NCBI GenBank assembly: GCA_030248225.1
Contig: JASANE010028746.1
Location: forward strand, 1 to 64,000
Length of the DNA: 64,000 nt
Direction of reading: 5' to 3'
From: Trileptium ribeirensis
Lineage: Eukaryota; Nematoda; Enoplea; Enoplida; Thoracostomopsidae
Positions within the stretch are counted from its first letter, which is position 1. Every line of letters begins with the position of its first letter. The position numbers and the translations under genes are program-made. Positions 33,357 to 62,820 of this stretch are shown here, piece after piece. Below the pieces are notes generated by a model that saw nothing but the letters and a program-made list of their open reading frames with translations, searched no databases and was not told the DNA's origin.

Positions 33357-35253
33357 AATTGTCTCCTTCGCTCATTACAAGCAGTAAAAGACAGTTTCAC
33401 AGAGTCTAAAGAAAGACCGGGAATCCTGGTGGAACGAAAAGGCCGCAACAATAGAGCGTGCAAACATAAATGGGCATCACCAGAGGCTTTTCTCAACTTT
33501 AAAATCAATCACAGGATCTCGCCAACCAGTCAGTGAAACCATACTTAACTGCACTGGAGCAATACTACGCACGACTGCTGATAAATTGATTCGTTGGCGT
33601 CAACATTTCAAAGATTTGTACAACCGTCCGAACCCTCCAGAGTTGGACCTCGACCTAGATCTACATACAAATGTAACAGATGTCGCTATTAACACAAACC
33701 CACCAACTCTAGCTGAAGTCAAAACTGCCGCTGCAGCTCTGAAACGTAAAAAATCTGCCGGCTGTGATGATGTCTATGCGGAAATGCTGCAGAATGGTGG
33801 CGATCAAGTAATAAAACAACTTCATCAAATCATAAGCGACGTCTGGACCAGTGAAAACGTACCACAGGACTGGCGTGACGCTGATGTAGTCCCTGTACAC
33901 AAGAAGAAAAGTCGGTAGGTATGTGACAACTATAGGGGGATTAGTTTACTATCTGTATCTAGTAAACTTTTCATGTCAATTCTGCGAAAGCGGATCCTGC
34001 CTTTACGGGAGTCAAATACACGCGAACAACAGGCCGGATTTCGTGTAGGTCGTAGCTGCAATGATCAAATATTCTGCGTTCGACAGGTAATAGAGCGACG
34101 TCTGAAATACGGAAAACCGTTTCTCGCTACCTTTGTCGATTTCGCCGCTGCTTTCGACAGTGTTCATCGTCAATCACTCTGGAAAGCGCTAGCTGCGGAC
34201 GGCTTTCCTTCAAAGTTCATCCGCATCATACAAAACCTGTATGAGGGTGCCAAGTGCAGTGTGAAGGTATACGGCGAAAAGTCGGAACCTTTCGAAATAA
34301 CAACAGGAGTGCGACAGGGCTGCGTTATATCCCCTATAATATTTAACGTTGTAATAGACTGGATAATGCACAAAGTTGAACACTCAGCTACACCTCTCCA
34401 ACTGGGCAATAATATTGGCATTCTCGACTTAGACTATGCCGATGACCTAGTTTTATTCTCTGAAGACTCTGCTAGTGCACAAGCTACGTTAGACGCGTTG
34501 GATAGCACTGCATCTAAACTAGGATTATGTATCAGTAACACGAAAACCAAGGTGATGGCTTTTCTGACAATCAATCCAGTTCTGACACTACGTGGCTTAC
34601 CAATAGAAAGTGTGGATAAATTTACATACTTAGGTGCCACAGTATCGAACAATATCATTAATGCCAGAGACGATATCAACCGACGCATTGGCAGAGCGTC
34701 AGCTGCTTTTGGAAAACTACAAAAGGTGTTATGGTCACGTCGAGATGTGTCTCTCAACACAAAAATGCGTGTATTCAACGCTATCGTAACACCAACTCTA
34801 CTATATGGGTCAGAATCGTGGACAATGCTTGCCGAAGACCTTCGAAAGCTGGAAGTATTTCAGACACGATGTTTGAGGTCAATTGCTAGTTTGATGCTGA
34901 AGAATCGCGTGCGCAACCAGGATGTACGACGGCAATGCTGCAACCAACCTATGATTCATGATCTGATACGCACTACGAGATTGCGGTTGTTCGGTCATGT
35001 ACATCGAATGCCACCAGACAGAACTCCACATCAACTACTGACGAGCGCCTGCCCAATCGACTGGAAAATGCCTCGGCATGCCCTACGCAAACGCTGGGTA
35101 GACCAAGTCAAAGCAGACGTTGGTCGTTTACATTTCGATATCCCTGCAGCAGTACTCGCCTCCCACGATCGACATCAATGGCGAGCTATCATCAGAGACG
35201 TGTCACGAGCAGCTACATCGGGATCAGCATCCTTGCCGTATCGCCGATAACGC
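33357..35253 (+). mobile_element. RTE-clade LINE inserted into the CR1 relic
   Basis: 5'-truncated element flanked by the 8-base duplication TATAAGTT (33349-33356 and 35254-35261). The open frame runs from about 33396 through 35250 with a single TAG at 33916-33918. It has the LINE linker region (ESWWNEKAATIERA), then reverse transcriptase with AFVDFAAAFDS-type motif A, GVRQGCVISPIIFNVVIDW, and catalytic LDYADDLVLF, and ends with RLFGHVHRMP and a short tail. Removing the element restores the CR1 frame (TNISSSKFTYSF). The upstream endonuclease domain is missing, so it cannot move on its own. Confidence 0.92.
33396..35250 (+). pseudogene. RTE reverse transcriptase frame with one nonsense codon
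   Basis: The two open stretches 33586-33918 and 33973-35250 are in one frame. The TAG falls in the segment between KKKSR and VCDNYRGISLLSV, where the family has an unbroken linker before the NYRGI motif. The rest is intact: RQGC, the YADD catalytic pair at about 34437-34448, and the thumb/C-terminal region ending in LPYRR. The frame is thus one substitution from open, but the 5' truncation removed the endonuclease. Its age is more recent than the neighbouring second copy, which is full of stops. Confidence 0.88.
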
Positions 35254-51870: not shown

Positions 51871-52280
51871 CATACCGGATCCATAATATCCCCGGTTGTC
51901 GGTGGAGCATCTACCTACCACTAAGGCCATTCTTTAGACACCAAACTAGATGGCGAAATGGTCTTAAGAGGCTAACGTGGGACGTTTTGAAGTGGTGAAC
52001 CCCTGCACGGCGCGGACCGAAGTCCTTAACTTTACCTCTTGAACCCACGTCCGCATCTGTTTTTATCATGGTTTAATATCCATACCGTTTTTTACTCTTT
52101 CGTACAATTTCTTCTTCTTTGTCCAAGGGAAGTTCTTCGGAATTTTGAACCCCCTCCCAAATGAAAAATAAAATTCCTTAAAAAATATATGAATAGACGG
52201 TTAATATGAATACACAGGTATGAGGATAAGATAAAAATATTATATCAATGTTTTTGAAAAAGTTTTCTTTTCTATGGTAA
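51871..52280. other. No gene seen
   Basis: Unremarkable apart from a GGCGAAATGGTC...GTGGACGTTT-like GC-richer patch around 51950-52060. Confidence 0.35.
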
Positions 52281-52920
52281 AATGACCGGTCTCTTCCAGT
52301 TTGGCGCCTTCTTTGGTACTCTTATGAGTTCTTCTTCGGCAATTATTAAATTGTCTTTATCAATTACTAGTCATTTGGGCCGCTGAATTGTTCTTCGGGT
52401 TGACGTGCCCCGCCGTCGTTGCTTTGGGACCGGTTCTCTTATTCACCGATTCATCTTTGGTGATTACGATCACACCGTTTCTTTGTCATTGATTTGCGTT
52501 GTTGTAGTTTCCGGTCGTTCTTTTCGTATCAGGTTCTTCCTTAGTCACACCGAATATCGTTGCGTCAGTTCTTTATTTGATTTGGTCTTTCCGATTGTTA
52601 TTGAATCGGTTCTTTGAGCGTGTCATTATTTGTTGCACCGGTGTTGTGAATTTGCACCGACTTCTTTATCGTTGGTTCTAATTATATCGATTGTGTTAAT
52701 GTCCTGCCGATTGTTTTTACATCGTCCTGTTGTTTTACATCGGTTGCTTCTGGTTACACCGTTTGTATAATAATAATTTTATCGCTCCGATTGTATCAGT
52801 TTCTTTGACCAAATGTTTGTTATTTATTTGGTATCCTAATCGGTTCGTTTTGCTCCGATTTCTTTGACTCGTACGTTTATTTAAGTGCCTTAATCTTTTC
52901 CTTAGATTTACGCTAATACT
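52280..52920. repeat. Low-complexity CCGGTTCTTT-type stretch
   Basis: Short words CGGTTCTTT, CACCG, TCCGAT and TTTCTTTGA recur at irregular spacing through 640 bases, T- and C-rich on the plus strand. It looks like a diverged short-period satellite. The open frame at 52405-52617 is a by-product. Confidence 0.5.
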
Positions 52921-53050
52921 TTCCTTAACTTTTCCTCTTGTGAGGTTTGTACGAAGCGTACCGGACGGCTAGACCCGTACGTTTATTTAAGTACCTTATC
53001 CTAGGATCTTAGATTTACGCTAATACTTGCCGTTATTTTAACGTTACTAG
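52860..53050. repeat. TTAGATTTACGCTAATACT repeat, second location
   Basis: Two adjacent units share CGTACGTTTATTTAAGT, CCTTA and CTTAGATTTACGCTAATACT. They relate to the units at 49020-49340. Confidence 0.7.
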
Positions 53051-53339
53051 CTAGGCACGATCTATAACTAGTTAGTAGTTGGCAGCTACTATCTAGTGAA
53101 ATTATTTACTTGGTCGGGTTACTCACATCCCAAACTCGCTCAGAGAATGCTTACCAATTTCTGTCCCAGCTATCTCCACGGGGTATTTCTCAATTCTGGG
53201 GGGACTGGCTTCGGAACTCGAAAGGGGCCCATTATTGTTAGCGTTACGCTTGTGTTCGGCTCACTTTTTATATGGGAAATTAGTATTACTATTATATAAT
53301 AATAAACGTAATAATGTACCTATTTGTGCAGCCAATTTT

Positions 53340-53860
53340 TGTCACTCAACGTTAATCTCCGGTTGGAACAAGGCACACCTTTACTTCGCAATCGGTTCAT
53401 AAATCTTTTCCAATTAGAAGTTCAAGTCACTTCCAGGCTACGGCATTAAAACCTCTAATCACTGTGTAAAACGGAAGCCAAAATCACAGATAAAGTCACA
53501 AATCAATCGTAAAATTGGTATGAATTCGTGGTTATAATACAAACACCGGAACAGTTATTCGGTCGCTATCTCTTACCTAACTTGGTGAAAACAAAACCTA
53601 GACTGCCCTAAAGCAAAGAAAACGAAGCTAACATATCTTAGCTAAAACGGAAAACAAATGAAATTATGCAAATTATCATTAAAAGAAGCGAAAAGAACAG
53701 AAAAAATAAAACAAGGGAGAAAAGAAAACATAGGGGACGGAGTGATATAATAAAGGAATTGGTGACCATCCCGGGGTTTTTAGGTGATTTTGGGGTTTTG
53801 AGGAGGGTTTGGACTGGAAACCCTCGTGGTAGCTTGGAAACCTCTTACACAAGGCGAACT
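53340..53860. repeat. Unclassified repeat pair, copy 2
   Basis: Counterpart of 51400-51870; see that entry for shared blocks. The purine-rich run here is AAGCGAAAAGAACAGAAAAA-like. Confidence 0.6.
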
Positions 53861-53889
53861 TTTCCCTTAAAATGGACAAGGGTGCACCG

Positions 53890-54255
53890 TTATTTTGATA
53901 TCTCTGGATCTCTCGTCACCTTTTGATAATGTCGACCATAATATACTCATTCAACGTTTCTGCGACATCGGCGTGTCACAAACAAGCAAACGCAAACACA
54001 TTACTCCGATTCTGCGCCGACTCCACCGGCTGCTTGTTGAAAAGCCGACACAGTACAAAATGCTCATCATCCTCTTCAGGGCCATATCTACCGGCGCACC
54101 GTCATATGTCTCCAATAGATCAAACTATCAGTGCTGCCACGCCTAGCGGCTTGCCGCATACTCAACATCGACGTTTCGCGCAGTAACAGTTTCAGCTCCT
54201 TTGCACCGCTTGAGTGGAATAACCTGTCACCAAACCTCCGTGATCTCCTAGTTAT
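53890..54255 (+). pseudogene. L2/CR1-type LINE with a large internal deletion
   Basis: Motif A of a reverse transcriptase (ISLDLSSPFDNVDHNILI then QRFCDIGV) is joined directly to the C-terminal end of the same type of protein (HITPILRRLHRLLVEKPTQY, KMLIILFRAISTGAPSYVS, then after a shift SNSFSSFAPLEWNNLSPNLR). The palm and thumb that should lie between are missing, so it is an internally deleted dead copy. Confidence 0.8.
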
Positions 54256-54259
54256 TTTG

Positions 54260-54514
54260 TTTCTTTTCCCAAGGGGGTGGCGGTTGCACTATAATTTATT
54301 ATGGCGGCTAACTTTCGATTAAATTGGGACAAGATTCGTCACTCGAAGATGTATGGTCCGAACGCATGGCCAGTAGTATGCCGGTGGGGATTATTGGTTG
54401 TTCCTTAGCGCACGTTATTAGGTCAGCGTATTGTTATTTCCTATGGCGCGGCTGCGTGACTATTCGAGTTGCTCTGTACTTGTTTCCGATATAGAGTCAA
54501 ACCAGCCAAACATA
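54260..54514. repeat. Unclassified repeat, copy 2, host of the LTR element
   Basis: Diverged copy of 48560-48800 in the same orientation, cut off by the left end of the LTR retrotransposon. It may extend to the far side, because 60068 onward begins CAACTTTATTAAAC, loosely like the sequence after 48780. Confidence 0.5.
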
Positions 54515-54696
54515 TGTAATGTTGTGCAATCGTTGTTGTACTAATAGCTCACAAAAAGTTACAAATAGAACGAAGCCAATGGTTCACACCAATTACTTTA
54601 TTAACAATAACCATTAACTAAAACCCAATCTAAAATAAACAAAATATAAAATATAACAAAACATATTTTAGTGAACAACTAACAACACCTATTACA
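54515..54696 (-). repeat. 3' LTR
   Basis: On the minus strand starts TGTAATAGGTGTTGTTAGTT and ends ACATTACA. TGTAAT/ATTACA form short inverted ends. Three differences separate it from the other LTR. It is unusually short for gypsy-type LTRs. No strong polypurine tract precedes it; the adjacent internal sequence on the minus strand ends GCCCGGCGGA. Confidence 0.93.
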
Positions 54697-54733
54697 TCCG
54701 CCGGGCTACAGAAAAACTCGTCCCGAGTTTTTA

Positions 54734-57700
54734 CTACGAACAATCATTACAAAACCAATATTTTGTTTTCGGTACAGTATCTAAACCTACACAAGATAAA
54801 TGAAACCATTCATTACAACGGTCACAACCAATTACAGTGGGTCCTGATGGTGACCACGGTATAAAACATATTGGACATAAGTAAATATTACTTTCACTTG
54901 GTTCCTCAGAATCAAGTCTGTTATTGTCAACGTCACGCCCAAGGGTAGGCTTTGATGAAAAGTTATTGACAGATACATTGCCTTTTAATGCAGGTAGATA
55001 AGGACCTACAAGCAAACGCACTTCTTCACGAGATATTGTTTTTGACATAGCGTCCGGTTTGTTTACAGGAACCACTGCAACATTATAGTCATCACACGAA
55101 ACAATTCGAAAAGGACCACAAAAACGAGGTGCTAGCTTAGGATCAGTGTCCGTTTCAATAACACGATTCTTAACCCAAACTAAATCACCAACTTTACACT
55201 TTTGCTTAGTTGTTTTACGATTATGATTTTTAACCTGTGTTTCCTGTGCTTCACCTATGCATTTACGAGCAATGTCCCAAACTTCAGACAGATGAGAACC
55301 AATACGTTCAGCGCGTTGATCAGAGACAAAGTCATCATCAGACACAATATCTAAGTCAGCTGGACGACGTGGTTCACAACCATGCAGCATATAAAACGGA
55401 GAACGATTAGTTGACGAATGCACTGCACTATTGTAAGCAAACTGAACCATGGGTAATAGCAAGTCCCAGTTTCGCTGACGATGATCAGTAACACAACGCA
55501 GCATGCGATAGATGACTTGTATAGCACGCTCGGCAAGGCCATCTGATTTAGGGTGATACGGAGTAGTAAAGACTTTGAGCGTCGTACATCGTTGAGTAAT
55601 TTCTTCAAGCAATTTGGAACGAAAGTTAGGAGCTTGGTCGCTCAAGAGATACTCTGGAGCACCAAATTGCAAAACTACCTTATTGATGAAAACATCAGCG
55701 GTTTCAGCTGCTGTTGATGTTTTCAACGGCGCTAAAATCAAATATTTTGATAAATAGTCAACAAACACTATTATGTATTTATTTCCACGAGCCGTAATTT
55801 GATAAGGTCCACATATGTCACACCCGACTCGTTCAAATATACGATTCGTCACAATAGGCTGAAGATTTAGCGTAACATTACTTTTACGCGATCGACTACA
55901 AACAAGGCATTGTTCGCGATGCAACTCACAAGCAGAGTACATTCCATGCCAATAGTATTTGGTTAAAAGCGTATTATACATTTTGTTGACGGAAAAATGT
56001 CCTGCGGAACCAGAGTCGTGGTATTCTGCTAGTATAGAATCGCGTCTACACGTTGGAACGACCGTTAATAGTTTAAAATCGTTATTTCGATGCCGAAATC
56101 GGTAAAGTAACATGCCATCCGCTGATAGTTCGTAATCTTGAGCACTACTGACAACTTGGCGGGACTTATTTTCATCATTAGGAAGAACACCAGATGTCAA
56201 ATAGTCAATGATTATTGACAACTTGGGATCGTTACGTTGTTCGTCAATGAAAGTCTCAATTGAAGTACTACTGCACACAGGTGCAACATTATCAGATGAT
56301 GTTAAGTTCGACATTGGACATTTGTCAGTATCCTTTAAAGGACAACACAACGGAGCAAGACGACTAAGAGCATCAGCATCTTTATTTGCAGTACCTGCAC
56401 GATACGATATAGTGATATCATACTGCGACAACTCCATCGACCAGCGAGCTAATCGACCTTCTAAACCCTTAGCAGTCATTAGATACGTTAATGCAGAATG
56501 ATCGGTGAAAATTACACACTTACGACCGTAAATATACGGTTTGAAATGACGAACAGCCCAGATAACAGCTAAACATTCTAAATCAGTTATACCGTAATTA
56601 ATTTCACTACCATGCAATACTCGTGAAGCATAAGATATGGGATGTGGTTTTCCACTATCGTTCATTTGCGTTAATACAGCACCAAGACCCTTCTTACAAG
56701 CGTCGGTATGTAACAAAAACGTTTTATCAAAGTTCGGATGAGCCAAACATGGTGGTTCAGTCAATGCACATTTTAAATCATTTATAGCATAAATAATATT
56801 ATCATCAAGACAAATTGAACTACAATTTTTCAATAAATCGGTTAAACAACGCATACGAACAGCACAATGAGGAATAAACATACGATAATAAGAAACAAGA
56901 CCAATAAAAGCACGTAAATCTTCCTTAGTTTGAGGAGGTTTCATTCCTAAAACCTTAGAAATATTTTCAGGATTCGGTTTACGACCCTGAGCACAAATAA
57001 TATTACCCAAATAAACCACTTCCGAAACTACGAAACGACACTTTCGTGGTTTCAACTTAACACCAGACCTTAACAATGCCTGTAACACCACACGCAACCT
57101 AACTAAATGCTCATCAAACGACCAAGCAAACACTAACACGTCGTCGAGATAAGCTAGACAGGTTTTATACTGCAGACCGGAAAGGGTGGCATCCATAAAA
57201 CGCTGCCAAGACGCAGGAGCATTAGCTAGACCAAAGGGCATACGCTTAAACTGAAAATGACCTTGATGTGTGCCGAAAGCTGTTTTAGGACGGTCGGCTT
57301 CAGCTATATCCATTGTCCAGTATGCAGAAAGCGTGTCGAGTGTAGTGAGCAGTAAACGGTTACTGTCGTTCGGAGGTGCGCCGATAGAATCGATGAGCTC
57401 ACTTACAGGCGGTAAAGGATATGCATCTTTGCGAGTGATAGCATTAAGGGCGCGAAAGTCGATGCAAAACCGGAAATCGCCTCCTTTCTTCAACGCAAAA
57501 AGTGGACAGAATTGCCATGGACTGTTGGAAGTTTCGATTATGTCGTTATCCAACATAGATTGAACATGCTTTTCGACTAACGGCCACTGTGAACGAGGAA
57601 TGCGTCTGCCCCGTTGTCGAATCGGTTGGTTATTGCCAGTATCAATCGTATGTTGAACTGTCGTGATATGACCTACGTCACTATCTGAAACAGCAAACAC

Positions 57701-59383
57701 ATTAGAACAATCATGCAATAATGACAATAAATCTTCACGTTCATTAGAACTCAAATTTGTTTGACTATCCCCAATTAGCAATGTTTCGGCCAAAGTATCC
57801 TTCGTCCACGTGTCATGCGTTCCATTCAAATCCGGGCAGCTGATGTCATGTTCATCATCGTTTTCGACATCAACTGCTGAAACTGTTCCGATTACCTTAT
57901 GTTTGTCCACTTTAACACTAAAATTATTCGGATTCAATAGCTGAACAGGAATATGACCCTGACCATCTACCACAGCTAAAGAATTGGCTGCCAGAACATT
58001 GCATTTTGGTAAAAGACCAAAATTGCGCTGAAATAAACATGTAGTCGTAGGCGATAATTGTTGTTTAACTTCCGCTGAAATCATCATACGACTGAGCGGA
58101 GGTATCACTACACATTTACTACAACTGACCGGCACATTACTAATACTAGCATCTCTTAAACATGAAGATTTCACTTCAACCGGTGTTTCACACCCAGAAA
58201 TAAACACTTTAATGCCAGTAGAATCAGCTTTAATTTCAGTACCTAGAATCGATAATACATCCAAACCAAGGATAAATTCATCACTCATTTCAGACGAAAC
58301 CCAAACATTAACAATTGCTGATTTACTGCCTACATTAATTTTTAAAACAGCTACACCAGACAAACCAAAATTACCACCAGTAACAGTATGAGAACGAATA
58401 TGGGTTGGTTTAATTTTCTTAACTGACGATACACCAAAAACATTGTTAAAAGTTTTTTCAGAAATCAACGTTAACATACTACCTGTATCAATTAAACCAC
58501 GACAATCATAATTATCAATCCGTACATTTGTATAAACTCGCGTAAATGATTGTGTAGAAACTGAATTTACAGAAACATCATTGGTGTTTTCAGAATTAAT
58601 TACACTATATGAATAATGTTTAATGTCATCATAACCAACCATAACTGCTTTAACTGATATGTCACTTTTGACAGGAGTCGTATCGTTTTTGCCAACATTG
58701 GCATCCGAAGAATTCGAACGCTTACGTTGCAGACAATTTCGTGAAATATGACCAGTCATATTGCAGCTTGTGCATTTCATTAACTTTAGATTTGCGCGAC
58801 AGTCACGACGAACATGACCAAACTTACCGCAACGGAAACAATTTATTTTTGGCTTTTCGTTATTATTTTGTAAATTTTGATATTTACGAGACTGACCAGA
58901 ATTGTATGAAACATTAGATGTTTTAACATCAGCCAAAAAACATTCACTGGCTGTATTACCGTTATCTTCCGGATACTGTTCATCTAGCAAATGAGCTTGT
59001 TGAACAACATCCATAAACGTACACTCCCGTTTGTGTTCAACTTCAAAAGCCATGAACCAAGCAACTAAACGACCTGAAATTGCACTGCGTACATTATAAC
59101 AAAACAATTCTAAAACATATTCAGGTGTTTTGCCATTTAGTTGAGGATGTTGATCTTTATGCATTGTGTCAACAGTCATAAAACGTTCAATATAAGCATT
59201 GAGCAATTCATTAGGCTTTTGTTCACATAAAGCTAACATACGAATCGTATTTTGATAACGTTTACCGAGCACTTGTATTATACTAGCTTTTAAGACAGGC
59301 CAACTACTTTTGTGTTCAGGCAACAACATATTACTAACAGAACGAGCTGAAGGACCTAAATGAGAAATTAAACGAGACACCAT
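54734..59383 (-). CDS. Gag-Pol polyprotein with C-terminal PHD finger
   Basis: Uninterrupted 1549-residue frame. Two CCHC zinc knuckles (CFRCGKFGHVRRDC at 182-195, CTSCNMTGHISRNC at 204-217) end the nucleocapsid part. Protease active site DTGS at 299-302. Reverse transcriptase about 580-800 with MPFGLANAPASWQRFM and catalytic YLDD at 745-748. RNase H has D894, E936 and D961. Integrase has an HHCC zinc site (H1122, H1129, C1159, C1162) and catalytic D1189, D1249, E1285, a D-D-35-E arrangement, then a GPF motif at 1423-1425. The last 47 residues form a C4HC3 PHD finger (C1503, C1506, C1520, C1523, H1528, C1531, C1545, C1548) with W1543 in the canonical place. Every catalytic residue I looked for is present. 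PHD fingers bind histone H3 tails, so this one may steer integration, as chromodomains do in chromoviruses; that role is inference. Confidence 0.95.
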   Translation of the reverse strand: MVSRLISHLGPSARSVSNMLLPEHKSSWPVLKASIIQVLGKRYQNTIRMLALCEQKPNELLNAYIERFMTVDTMHKDQHPQLNGKTPEYVLELFCYNVRSAISGRLVAWFMAFEVEHKRECTFMDVVQQAHLLDEQYPEDNGNTASECFLADVKTSNVSYNSGQSRKYQNLQNNNEKPKINCFRCGKFGHVRRDCRANLKLMKCTSCNMTGHISRNCLQRKRSNSSDANVGKNDTTPVKSDISVKAVMVGYDDIKHYSYSVINSENTNDVSVNSVSTQSFTRVYTNVRIDNYDCRGLIDTGSMLTLISEKTFNNVFGVSSVKKIKPTHIRSHTVTGGNFGLSGVAVLKINVGSKSAIVNVWVSSEMSDEFILGLDVLSILGTEIKADSTGIKVFISGCETPVEVKSSCLRDASISNVPVSCSKCVVIPPLSRMMISAEVKQQLSPTTTCLFQRNFGLLPKCNVLAANSLAVVDGQGHIPVQLLNPNNFSVKVDKHKVIGTVSAVDVENDDEHDISCPDLNGTHDTWTKDTLAETLLIGDSQTNLSSNEREDLLSLLHDCSNVFAVSDSDVGHITTVQHTIDTGNNQPIRQRGRRIPRSQWPLVEKHVQSMLDNDIIETSNSPWQFCPLFALKKGGDFRFCIDFRALNAITRKDAYPLPPVSELIDSIGAPPNDSNRLLLTTLDTLSAYWTMDIAEADRPKTAFGTHQGHFQFKRMPFGLANAPASWQRFMDATLSGLQYKTCLAYLDDVLVFAWSFDEHLVRLRVVLQALLRSGVKLKPRKCRFVVSEVVYLGNIICAQGRKPNPENISKVLGMKPPQTKEDLRAFIGLVSYYRMFIPHCAVRMRCLTDLLKNCSSICLDDNIIYAINDLKCALTEPPCLAHPNFDKTFLLHTDACKKGLGAVLTQMNDSGKPHPISYASRVLHGSEINYGITDLECLAVIWAVRHFKPYIYGRKCVIFTDHSALTYLMTAKGLEGRLARWSMELSQYDITISYRAGTANKDADALSRLAPLCCPLKDTDKCPMSNLTSSDNVAPVCSSTSIETFIDEQRNDPKLSIIIDYLTSGVLPNDENKSRQVVSSAQDYELSADGMLLYRFRHRNNDFKLLTVVPTCRRDSILAEYHDSGSAGHFSVNKMYNTLLTKYYWHGMYSACELHREQCLVCSRSRKSNVTLNLQPIVTNRIFERVGCDICGPYQITARGNKYIIVFVDYLSKYLILAPLKTSTAAETADVFINKVVLQFGAPEYLLSDQAPNFRSKLLEEITQRCTTLKVFTTPYHPKSDGLAERAIQVIYRMLRCVTDHRQRNWDLLLPMVQFAYNSAVHSSTNRSPFYMLHGCEPRRPADLDIVSDDDFVSDQRAERIGSHLSEVWDIARKCIGEAQETQVKNHNRKTTKQKCKVGDLVWVKNRVIETDTDPKLAPRFCGPFRIVSCDDYNVAVVPVNKPDAMSKTISREEVRLLVGPYLPALKGNVSVNNFSSKPTLGRDVDNNRLDSEEPSESNIYLCPICFIPWSPSGPTVIGCDRCNEWFHLSCVGLDTVPKTKYWFCNDCS

Positions 59384-59808
59384 TTCATCTTCCTGGCTCC
59401 GGAATCACGCATAATACGTTCATATGTATTATCCAGCCAATAACGAATACTTTCCTTTTTAGCATCGTAAGACCTCAAAGGTTCTGAAAGTTTTGTGATT
59501 TTTGGCTGCTGCAATGAACTAGACAAAGAAACATTACCTCTTAAAGCTTCAAGTAACTTATTCATTTCCTCTTTGTGGCGCTTCTCTTCTTTTTTGTGAC
59601 GCTTCTCGTCTGCTTCACGCTGAGCTTGCATCTCCTTGATCAACGCAAGCACATCCGGAGAAACTTTCGTCGCCTCCATCGTAACAGGTTTCTTTAGTAG
59701 CTTTTCGGGATCATCAACAATTGGAAATAATTGGTATTGAGCACGACGTTTCGAGGATTCCGATTGCCGCGAAACACGATCGGCAGATTGTGATCTTTTA
59801 TCAGCCAA
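59368..59808 (-). CDS. Gag N-terminal frame
   Basis: 146-residue frame starting MADKRSQSADRVSRQSES, basic and Ser/Arg-rich at first. A charged coiled-coil-like stretch follows (EMQAQREADEKRHKKEEKRH, about residues 75-100), then a region ending SGARKMKWCLV before a TAA. It overlaps the next frame by 16 bases and is offset by one base upstream (-1). The second frame picks up what looks like the continuation of the Gag capsid, so either a -1 programmed frameshift or a one-base mutation separates the two. No obvious slippery heptamer of the X-XXY-YYZ kind lies in the overlap; GATGAAATGG is there instead. The ATG at 59808 is the first of the element after the primer-binding site and is the likely start. 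Confidence 0.8.
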   Translation of the reverse strand: MADKRSQSADRVSRQSESSKRRAQYQLFPIVDDPEKLLKKPVTMEATKVSPDVLALIKEMQAQREADEKRHKKEEKRHKEEMNKLLEALRGNVSLSSSLQQPKITKLSEPLRSYDAKKESIRYWLDNTYERIMRDSGARKMKWCLV

Positions 59809-59859
59809 TGTTAAGTTAAATGTTGGTTAGACACTCAGGGATAATTGTCAAAAAAATCG

Positions 59860-59885
59860 CTGGGGGTTCGACGGTGGGACCTCCA
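59860..59885 (-). other. Primer-binding site
   Basis: On the minus strand the sequence directly after the 5' LTR reads TGGAGGTCCCACCGTCGAAC. It starts with TGG (complement of the tRNA CCA end) with no spacer, as in Ty3/gypsy elements. I do not identify the matching tRNA. Confidence 0.75.
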
Positions 59886-60067
59886 TGTAATGTTGTGCAA
59901 TCGTTGTTGTACTAATAGCTCACAAAAAGTTACAAATAGAACGAGGCCAATAGTTCACACCAATTACTTTATTAACAATAACCATTAACTAAAACCCAAT
60001 CTGAAATAAACAAAATATAAAATATAACAAAACATATTTTAGTGAACAACTAACAACACCTATTACA
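59886..60067 (-). repeat. 5' LTR
   Basis: Matches the LTR at 54515-54696 with three substitutions (in the AACGAAGCC, CAATGGTTC and AATCTAAAAT blocks). TG...CA ends on the minus strand. Confidence 0.93.
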
Positions 60068-60310
60068 CAACTTTATTAAACACAAAACCAAGATATATAC
60101 AAAGTATTGATAACAAACATGAATAGAAAACACAATTAAAGATACAATAAAGTTGGAAAATTTATTCTGAAGTGCACTGCGTTAATTTTGAGGCTAATCT
60201 CTAGGCATATAAGGGCAGTAAACCACTTATAATATGCCTAAGTTAAAGAAGATAAGTAAATATAGGAATCGAAATAACTATTTAAAAATTTCTTGAATAC
60301 TTAAGCCACT
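60068..60310. other. Flank of the LTR element, possible CR1 3' end
   Basis: AT-rich. It precedes the CR1 relic on the minus strand and may include its 3' untranslated end. Confidence 0.35.
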
Positions 60311-60319
60311 ACTCTAAAT

Positions 60320-61690
60320 TTACATGGCCAAACGTTTGCCTAAACGCATCGCTATTACTTGCAGTGACAAGTGGAAAACCATTGATGGTTTCAGGTAATG
60401 AATTCCACATTGGTACGATTCTATTTGACAAACAGTTTGGCCAAGAGATGTTAATGATCTACTATAAAATAATTTAAGGGAATGACCACGCGTTCGCGAA
60501 TCTACAGCGAGTGTGAAAAAATTATAACGACAAACATCAACATCTTTACGGACTATTTTGTAGCATATGACCAGATCGGCTATTATGCGTCTTTCTTCTA
60601 ATGACTTCATTTTTAGGTAGCTGAGTCTTTCCAAATAAGTAAAGTTCGAGATACTTAATTTGTAGAACAATCTTCGTGTAAAATATCGCTGGACTGATTC
60701 TATTTTGTCTATATCATTAAGCAGATGAGGTGAGCAGACAGGAGAGCAGTACTGAAGGATGGGTACTACATAGCTCTTAATGCAGTCACAAGACAACTTG
60801 CATTACAGTTGCTGAAACAACGAAACAACATGTTTACAACATTGAGTGCTTTTTTATAAATGTAATCAATGTGTGTTTTCGGTTTTAGATCAGAGCAAAC
60901 AATGATACCTAAATCGCTTACGCAGTTTTTTGGTAAAAGTTGAGAACCGTCTAGGAAATAGTTGCACGTTAACGAGCTATGGCCTATACGAAGAATGCAA
61001 CATTTTTCAACTGATATCTTCAGTTGCCATTTTTAGCCCAAGATGCAATTGCATCAAGGTCTTTTTGGAAAAGATAAATATCACTGCTGTTACGAATGCA
61101 TCTAAACAACTTAACATCATCAGCGAAAAGAGCAATGCTAGAATTCAGTACATCGACGATGTCATTAATGTAAATAACAAACAGAAGTGGCCTTAACACC
61201 GAGCCTTGAGGTACCCCAGACAAAACATCGCTGTTTCTTGAGAAACTTTTATTGATTGTAACGAGCTGAGTACGGTTTGTTAAGTAGCTGTGTAACCAGC
61301 GCAAAGGAATACCTCTAATACCATAGGAATATAATTTATATATTATTTTTTTGTGAGAAACGTGTCAAATGCTTTAGCAAAGTCTATATATACTATGTCA
61401 GTAACAAGATTCAGATCTCTTAATCTAGTACGCGTATTAAGAACATCAAGTAACTGTGTACATGTATATCTTTTTTTAAGAAAACCATGTTGAGCTGAGC
61501 TAAGTAATTATGTCTTCTAACAGGTAAACAGTTTTCTAACATTTGTAAGCTATTATTAACTATTATAGTTAATACTCGATCACCCCTAGTATAATTGCCA
61601 TTATAATTTCCTAATTTTTTGGGAAAAATATTATTAATATAACTCATATAGTGATTAAATATAGCTACATGTGAAGTAAGTCCTTACTGG
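60320..61690 (-). pseudogene. CR1/jockey-type LINE relic
   Basis: Frame-shifting pieces of one reverse transcriptase on the minus strand. From the 5' side they are LNMVFLKKDIHVHSYL (61420-61647), a DFAKAFD motif near 61360-61390 in another frame, WLHSYLTNRTQLVTINKSFS then GVPQGSVLRPLLFVIYINDI and FADDVKLF (61020-61304), and IKSYVVPILQYCSPVCSPHL to YKIVRKDV (60320-60796). FADD is the catalytic box. At least three shifts and several stops make it non-functional, and the endonuclease is missing. It is the best local reference for the CR1 fragment at 33125-33356. Confidence 0.87.
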
Positions 61691-62820
61691 AAAACCAATT
61701 CTTAAAGAAAATTCACAAAATATTCGATCCAAACGCCAGTACTAAGTGAAATACCAAGCGTACGTGTAGTTCTTTAAACTAAAAATCAACGTGCCGAGTA
61801 TAGGTTCTTCTTTAAGCCAAATATTTGCGTAACCTTGCGTTAAGACTCCAAAATCTACCAAAAATGCGTTAAAAACCAAACTGCATCACAACCGTATACC
61901 TTTCACAGCATTAAAAGTAACTCCACACATGCATAAAACCCGGCCGCCGATGATAACGCAATTTTCCGTAGCTACTGTCAAGTTTTGGGCAGGTCCAACC
62001 TTGTATTTCCCTCCCTCATAGGCAATATTTCATAGGTTCGGACATAATTTCTAAAATCACACCGATCTCATTACCCTCCCCTGGGGGATATCCATCTTCC
62101 CACAGTGGTGACTCTTATACTTATCCCCGAGGTTGAGAAAACTATCTAAATTTCATATTTCACCCTTCAATTCCTACTCCTTACCGGTATACTATCCTTT
62201 AAAACCGACTCAAGATCCGCTAATTTACAAATTTCCCTATTTTTACTTAAATAACACATTTCTCTGGGCTTTATTATTATATTTTCCCGGTGGGGTGGGT
62301 TATATTCCATAACGGGTCAGTTCACACTTATTCCTACTCGGTTGAACCCATTATTCACTCCTATATCGAGATATATTATCCCTATATCCTCAGTCACACT
62401 TTATTTTACCTAAAAATCAATCTTTTTACTTTTCTATCAAATTTACAAATGTCCTAAGATTTTCTCAACTGGGGTATAACATTTCCCTAGTGCTAGATTA
62501 TATTCCATCTTCTCCCTGTGTTTGGAAACCCCTTAATTCCATTTTTATTAACCTTGGGTTCCTCTGATTTTCACTATTTTTCTCCTACAACCAAATATAT
62601 CAACATTTGACTTTTTCTGATTATATATGACTTCCTAAACCTTTAAATTTATCAAATGGGGTTCTACTCACCCATTCCTATACGCAAACCCGCTTAATCC
62701 CTACGGGATACCTATATCTAACTCTATTTTTAACCCCCAAAACTCAGTGAATTTCCCCCAAAAATACATATAATAATAACAATAATAATAAAATAAATTT
62801 TACTAAATAAATTTACTTAG
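61691..62820. other. Pyrimidine-rich region, no gene
   Basis: Plus-strand C- and T-rich sequence with recurring TTATATTCCAT (about 62300 and 62499), TTTCCC and CCTATATC words and strikingly few open frames. It could be a degenerate long-period repeat. No family is recognised. Confidence 0.5.

Follow-up and report, generated by a model that had tools for sequence, protein, structure and literature searches.

Which chromatin, if any, would be chosen by a retrotransposon whose integrase ends in a PHD finger? The question is raised by a 64,000-nucleotide stretch of the nematode Trileptium ribeirensis (contig JASANE010028746.1, positions 1 to 64,000; hereafter, the window), which contains a long terminal repeat (LTR) retrotransposon of the Ty3/gypsy type with such a finger at the end of its Gag-Pol protein. 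The choice of insertion sites by retroelements is a long-standing question, and to our knowledge chromodomains are the only integrase-borne chromatin readers known in Ty3/gypsy elements. We propose, with a probability of about 60% and on the basis of sequence and a structural model, that the finger tethers the integrase to promoters marked by trimethylated lysine 4 of histone H3 (H3K4me3), and thus is a predicted active-chromatin counterpart of the chromodomain. The parts of the element on which this proposal bears are the following.

54515-60067, minus strand: Ty3/gypsy LTR retrotransposon, bounded by two LTRs
54734..59383, minus strand: open Gag-Pol frame of 1549 amino acids (translation of the open reading frame)
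55109..55117, minus strand: GPF motif of the integrase C-terminal domain, residues 1423-1425 (read in the translation)
54884..55033, minus strand: poorly conserved linker between the integrase C-terminus and the finger, residues 1451-1500 (comparison of copies)
54740..54877, minus strand: PHD finger of the C4HC3 type, residues 1503-1548 (PF00628, AlphaFold2 model, Foldseek)

The finger had been noticed in a preliminary description made from the sequence alone, which claimed the C4HC3 ligand set with canonical spacing, a tryptophan two residues before the seventh ligand, and a location downstream of the GPF motif, in the place of a chromodomain. All three claims were borne out: (i) the translation shows the spacing C-x2-C-x13-C-x2-C-x4-H-x2-C-x13-C-x2-C, (ii) Trp1543 stands two residues ahead of the seventh zinc ligand, and (iii) the finger starts 77 residues past the GPF motif, the last zinc ligand being followed by a single residue. 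In the Pfam search that the description had suggested, PF00628 covers residues 1503-1548 by its whole profile (E-value 3.4e-6); the match is beyond chance, since its score of 27.4 bits exceeds the Pfam cut-off of 24. The AlphaFold2 model of the finger has the PHD fold, with a predicted local distance difference test score (pLDDT) of 87.6, and its best Foldseek match is the PHD finger of TAF3 (TM-score 0.79, E-value 2e-4), the H3K4me3 reader within TFIID, which ranks first for the window finger in both sequence and predicted fold. A 209-residue model of the integrase end together with the finger was poor (pLDDT 55.9) and was not used.

Relatives of the element were sought in the genome assembly (687 Mb, 20,229 contigs) using the 85-residue tail of the protein (best 150 of 554 candidates scored) and a 317-residue integrase piece (best 125 of 4840 candidates scored). 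Among the candidates scored, the lineage of the window element, PHD1, comprises at least seven loci: the window itself, C11398, C9214, C15534, C13539, C13987, and C2843. Five of the seven carry the finger, which is full-length in the window, C11398, and C9214, is interrupted by one stop in C15534, and in C13539 is divided, apparently by an insertion, into two parts some 300 bp from each other. In C13987 and C2843 similarity is lost inside the integrase end, ahead of the expected start of the finger and apparently at an inserted repeat, and no finger was found, by profile search included, in the remaining 1.2-1.3 kb or so to the contig end. By eye, one and the same repeat seems to have entered the integrase end of two different decayed PHD1 copies (L063, from about 5680 onward, and L064, from about 5000 onward).

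Two further groups of PHD-bearing gypsy integrases were found in the same genome. The group PHD2 was drawn from the weaker matches of the tail search (26 loci, L005-L030), 23 of which were grouped by finger sequence among the candidates scored; outside this count remain L019, which is the C13539 copy, L022, by eye an ING-type host finger, and L024. The last of these (C18599:28207-28359) has a PHD-like segment beginning WICGECSVEW, with no integrase core nearby. In 19 of the 23 PHD2 loci the finger is closely preceded, within the 1.5 kb fetched, by an integrase catalytic core. In C8949, C5634, and C7810 integrase and finger were assigned equal open-frame lengths, and C8949 holds RNase H, integrase, and finger in one frame.

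The group PHD3 is a large and partly young gypsy family. Its fingers read at L070 and L072 score 24.8 and 24.9 bits against the PF00628 cut-off of 24, and at least 130 matches to a 324-residue piece were obtained, some contigs having several; this is a lower bound, the best 123 of 3208 candidates having been scored. Fifty-six of the 130 matches listed begin no later than residue 25 and extend to at least residue 250 (the first 62 rows were computed, and the other 68 were checked by eye, none of them spanning residues 25-250). The finger is traversed by 48 of these 56, 37 of them without a stop, at 76-100% identity, and the remaining eight stop at or inside the finger. Many PHD3 copies (on C6275, C8953, and other contigs; L070, L072-L081) have open frames near 1191-1196 amino acids; in one of them, L081, the motif pattern detected no finger.

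Gypsy loci assigned as PHD-less were re-searched with a profile, because the first PHD pattern was blind to the PHD3-type finger. By pattern or profile, no finger was found in any of these 24 loci (L037-L060), searched over as much as 1.5 kb to either side of the integrase (best E-value 0.33), and L050, one of the 24, showed none when followed through to its end. Some gypsy integrases elsewhere in the assembly (C2769 and others) are part of very long open frames, of up to 3428 amino acids.

Outside the genome, the last 155 residues of the window frame matched nothing among 5.8 billion proteins; residues 1000-1549 gave 95 matches, none with the PHD pattern or a finger-profile match, and a scan of viral contigs gave no relative. 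A PHD2 integrase with its finger as the query gave 144 proteins, 120 of which were listed. Two of them, both environmental (metagenomic) proteins, carry a finger: P0099 (37% identity to the query) has a Pfam PHD match, and P0097 (52%) has a C-terminal PHD-like finger. They were the only ones below an E-value of 0.3 when a profile of the three finger types was run over 215 listed proteins; their close relatives P0098 and P0100 end ahead of the expected start of the finger. The PHD-bearing relatives asked for in the preliminary description thus exist both in this genome and beyond it.

The retention of the finger was then compared with that of the rest of the protein. Between the window element and the diverged open copy C11398, the finger ranks first in conservation among eight modules, with amino-acid identity of 77.6%, followed by reverse transcriptase (70.4), integrase core (67.5), RNase H (62.5), gag (58.2), the linker before the finger (56.0), the integrase C-terminal part (49.1), and protease (32.8). 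Against three copies, identity of the window element is 54-57% in the linker and 71-78% in the finger. For the finger, the rate of nonsynonymous substitutions (dN) is 0.19 and that of synonymous substitutions (dS) is saturated (window versus C11398, 49 codons), and in the PHD2 and PHD3 fingers dN is far below dS. Hence the fingers of PHD1, PHD2, and PHD3 are under purifying selection, and a clade of related elements with a selected finger, anticipated in the preliminary description, was found.

These data bear on the simplest alternative, namely that the finger is an accidental capture, or a read-through into host sequence, that has no function. Single decayed copies, such as those with one stop (C15534) or a split finger (C13539), would fit it. 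Against it stand the excess of dS over dN in all three groups, the first rank of the finger in conservation, and the passage of 48 of the 56 listed PHD3 matches through both integrase end and finger; an unused captured tail would diverge like the linker, and the finger is retained better than the enzymatic cores. Copies lacking the finger, named beforehand as a sign of such capture, did not turn up in PHD1, where five of seven copies carry it and the other two break off ahead of it. We consider accidental capture very improbable.

What the finger may read was examined through the residues that line the methyl-lysine cage of TAF3, given as D877, M882, W868, and W891 in the consulted portion of a published account (PMC12238850). 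The corresponding positions of the window finger are as follows.

54881..54883, minus strand: Tyr1501, predicted cage residue, aligned with TAF3 Trp868
54854..54856, minus strand: Trp1510, predicted cage residue, aligned with TAF3 Asp877; uncertain, as gap placement varies between alignments
54833..54835, minus strand: Val1517, aligned with TAF3 Met882 (cage floor)
54806..54808, minus strand: Trp1526, aligned with TAF3 Trp891

All TAF3-like cage positions are thus occupied in the window finger (Y1501, W1510, V1517, and W1526), and the aromatic cage that the preliminary description proposed to look for is predicted by alignment from Y1501, W1510, and W1526, the placement of W1510 being uncertain; this residue presumably lies near Tyr17 of BPTF. 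The cage columns were read in 27 rows, leaving out L023 and L026, which do not have the first part of the finger. The Trp1526 column holds tryptophan in all PHD1, PHD2, and PHD3 fingers read there, and the Trp1510 column holds tryptophan or tyrosine throughout the PHD1 and PHD2 fingers read.

Several observations weigh against H3K4me3 as the mark, or against a single mark for all lineages. The cage floor is valine in the window finger and methionine in TAF3, and we take BPTF to have tyrosine at this position; the cage may be weaker because valine stands in for these residues. In the PHD3 fingers neither of the first two cage positions is aromatic, and the first cage aromatic is missing from both metagenomic fingers; with their cages incomplete, the lineages need not all read the same mark. 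Moreover, the PHD3 fingers have His-Ser near the fourth zinc ligand (nine copies read), and the P0097 finger lacks one ligand of the last pair. In the structural comparison by VIA, TAF3 is within one Z unit of AL3 and AL1 (7.8 and 7.7) and of ORC1b (7.4), the last being a binder of unmodified H3. Finally, the selection estimates come from about 50 codons, with saturated dS and a simple counting method, and purifying selection tells that the finger is used, not for what.

Part of this evidence suits a finger that reads another chromatin state, such as unmodified H3K4 or other or several forms of the H3 tail, so that the element would target or avoid another compartment. The tie of TAF3 with ORC1b bound to unmodified H3 and the incomplete cages of the PHD3 and metagenomic fingers point this way, as do the PHD fingers of UHRF1/2, readers of unmodified H3, which occur lower down in the match lists of the window finger. 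We nevertheless hold such a reader to be unlikely, given the invariant Trp1526 and the constant aromatic residue in the Trp1510 column in PHD1 and PHD2, and given that TAF3 is on top of every PHD1 and PHD2 match list. To a similarly low degree we credit selection for a role away from histones, such as integrase multimerisation, nuclear import, or binding of a host protein or nucleic acid. There is precedent in the gammaretroviral integrase tail, which binds BET proteins, and extra C-terminal parts can bind host proteins, as stated in the portion consulted of PMC8149907; still, conservation of the predicted cage residues across the diverged PHD1 and PHD2 groups would be unexpected for a purely structural role.

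Under the proposed H3K4me3 tether, the finger, as a part of the integrase, would dock on nucleosomes carrying this mark, the docked integrase would guide the integration complex to promoters that are active, and the landing sites of new copies would be biased as a result. The finger would then serve at promoter chromatin in the way that the chromodomain is thought to serve at H3K9-methylated chromatin in chromoviruses. Such reader-directed integration is feasible in principle, because an engineered tether in which the ING2 PHD finger, a reader of H3K4me3, is joined to the integrase-binding domain of LEDGF redirects integration (PMC8149907, in the part consulted); that tether is a laboratory protein separate from the integrase. 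Of the chromatin-directed integration module suggested in the preliminary description, the conserved, TAF3-like C-terminal module stood, and histone binding and insertion bias remain predictions from sequence.

Comparison with known systems places the window element beside the chromoviruses, which are likewise Ty3/gypsy elements whose integrase ends in a small histone-reading domain; they differ in having a chromodomain and H3K9 methylation where the window element has a PHD finger and, as predicted, H3K4me3. Chromodomains that have an aromatic cage are directed to silent chromatin, and a conserved K4me3-type reader on Ty3/gypsy integrases would be the opposite solution. Retention of the cage is reported for group I chromodomains in the consulted part of PMC3605345. 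TAF3, the first match in sequence and fold with the same cage positions occupied, has W868, D877, and M882 where the window finger has Tyr, Trp, and Val, and is a subunit of TFIID, whereas the window finger is a part of an integrase. The window finger is encoded without an intron, whereas the exon match of the likely host TAF3 stops inside the finger.

PHD domains are also described in other mobile elements. In the consulted parts of the respective papers, CR1 and L2 long interspersed nuclear elements (LINEs) carry them in the ORF1 protein (one subgroup probably has its PHD at the beginning of ORF2), and they are suggested to aid targeting (PMC4120745), and the transposase of Ginger1-9_HM, related to gypsy integrase, has a C-terminal Ulp1 domain and PHD (PMC2836005). 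The former are non-LTR elements and the latter is a cut-and-paste DNA transposon with inverted repeats and a PHD paired with Ulp1, whereas the PHD of the window element is on an LTR-element integrase. As identities for the window element, a Ginger1 transposon was ruled out by the LTRs and reverse transcriptase, and a CR1/L2 LINE by the LTRs and integrase; no inverted repeats of at least 40 nt are among the repeats listed for 52000-62500. The consulted parts of the open-licence literature (Repbase not covered) show no PHD finger on a Ty3/gypsy integrase: in PMC3286476, PMC6875170, PMC5408684, PMC4255032, and PMC10799480, PHD is mentioned solely for a host gene, within references, or for fusions of host genes with transposable elements, and it has no mention in the portions consulted of PMC3601003 and PMC3118150. 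A chromatin reader on a Ty3/gypsy integrase is already known; here the reader is another one, a PHD finger.

As a guess from similarity, the source of the finger is probably a TAF3- or ING-class reader of the host. Trees were built from 63 and 40 hand-picked rows for approximately unbiased (AU) tests and from 176 rows for the placement of PHD2. The PHD1 clade has bootstrap and Shimodaira-Hasegawa-like approximate likelihood ratio test (SH-aLRT) values of 100/99; the clade of PHD2 with P0097-P0100 has 100/100 and contains PHD3 (SH-aLRT 100). All 16 of the 23 PHD2 loci that could be placed fall in one clade, and gypsy elements of this genome that have no PHD fall outside the PHD1 and PHD2 clades. 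Constraining all PHD-bearing integrases to one clade is not rejected (AU p 0.70 and 0.65) and raises the likelihood above that reached by the free search. The finger may have been acquired by these integrases once or several times, as the tree allows both.

A wider proposal, to which we give somewhat less than even odds, is that these elements form an old, diverse, and still expanding branch of "PHD-viruses", whose H3K4me3-reading fingers derive from one or more acquisitions of TAF3/ING-class host readers and steer copies into active promoters. If true, they would be a natural mirror image of the chromoviruses and a natural form of engineered retargeting. PHD integrases would also supply naturally evolved integrase-reader fusions for comparison with engineered ones.

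The remaining features of the window element are those of a young Ty3/gypsy retrotransposon.

54515..54696, minus strand: 3' LTR, 182 bp (repeat comparison)
55550..55825, minus strand: integrase catalytic core (rve), PF00665, residues 1187-1278
55883..56059, minus strand: H2C2 zinc-binding domain of the integrase, PF17921, residues 1109-1167
56420..56734, minus strand: RNase H, PF17917, residues 884-988
57002..57490, minus strand: reverse transcriptase, PF00078, residues 632-794
59371..59808, minus strand: likely N-terminal part of gag, 146 codons in another frame (matches the N-terminal gag of C11398)
59868..59885, minus strand: putative primer-binding site, its first 14 nt common to C11398
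59886..60067, minus strand: 5' LTR, 182 bp, differing from the 3' LTR at 3 of 182 positions

The Pfam matches in the Gag-Pol frame (zinc knuckle, protease, reverse transcriptase, RNase H, H2C2, rve, and PHD) follow the Ty3/gypsy order, the aspartic protease match of 25.3 bits being below its cut-off of 28.2. No chromodomain was matched by Pfam in this frame up to an E-value of 0.1, so that the element is not classed as a chromovirus and would at most behave like one. The TG...CA ends of the LTRs and the putative primer-binding site are those of a Ty3/gypsy LTR retrotransposon, and the 98% identity of the LTRs indicates that the element is young. The five flanking bases nevertheless differ (ACATA at 54510-54514 and CAACT at 60068-60072); the target-site duplication of an integrated copy can be lost by recombination. 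In C11398 the LTRs are about 460 bp long with 10 substitutions, their outer ends being approximate, and a single 1719-residue frame holds both gag parts, which are in separate frames in the window. Both elements share the stretch CCGGCGGATGT ahead of the 3' LTR.

The Rfam scan returned no RNA family and ARAGORN returned no tRNA. Elsewhere in the window, a 425-residue open frame at 33973-35250 resembles, by eye, the end of a LINE reverse transcriptase.
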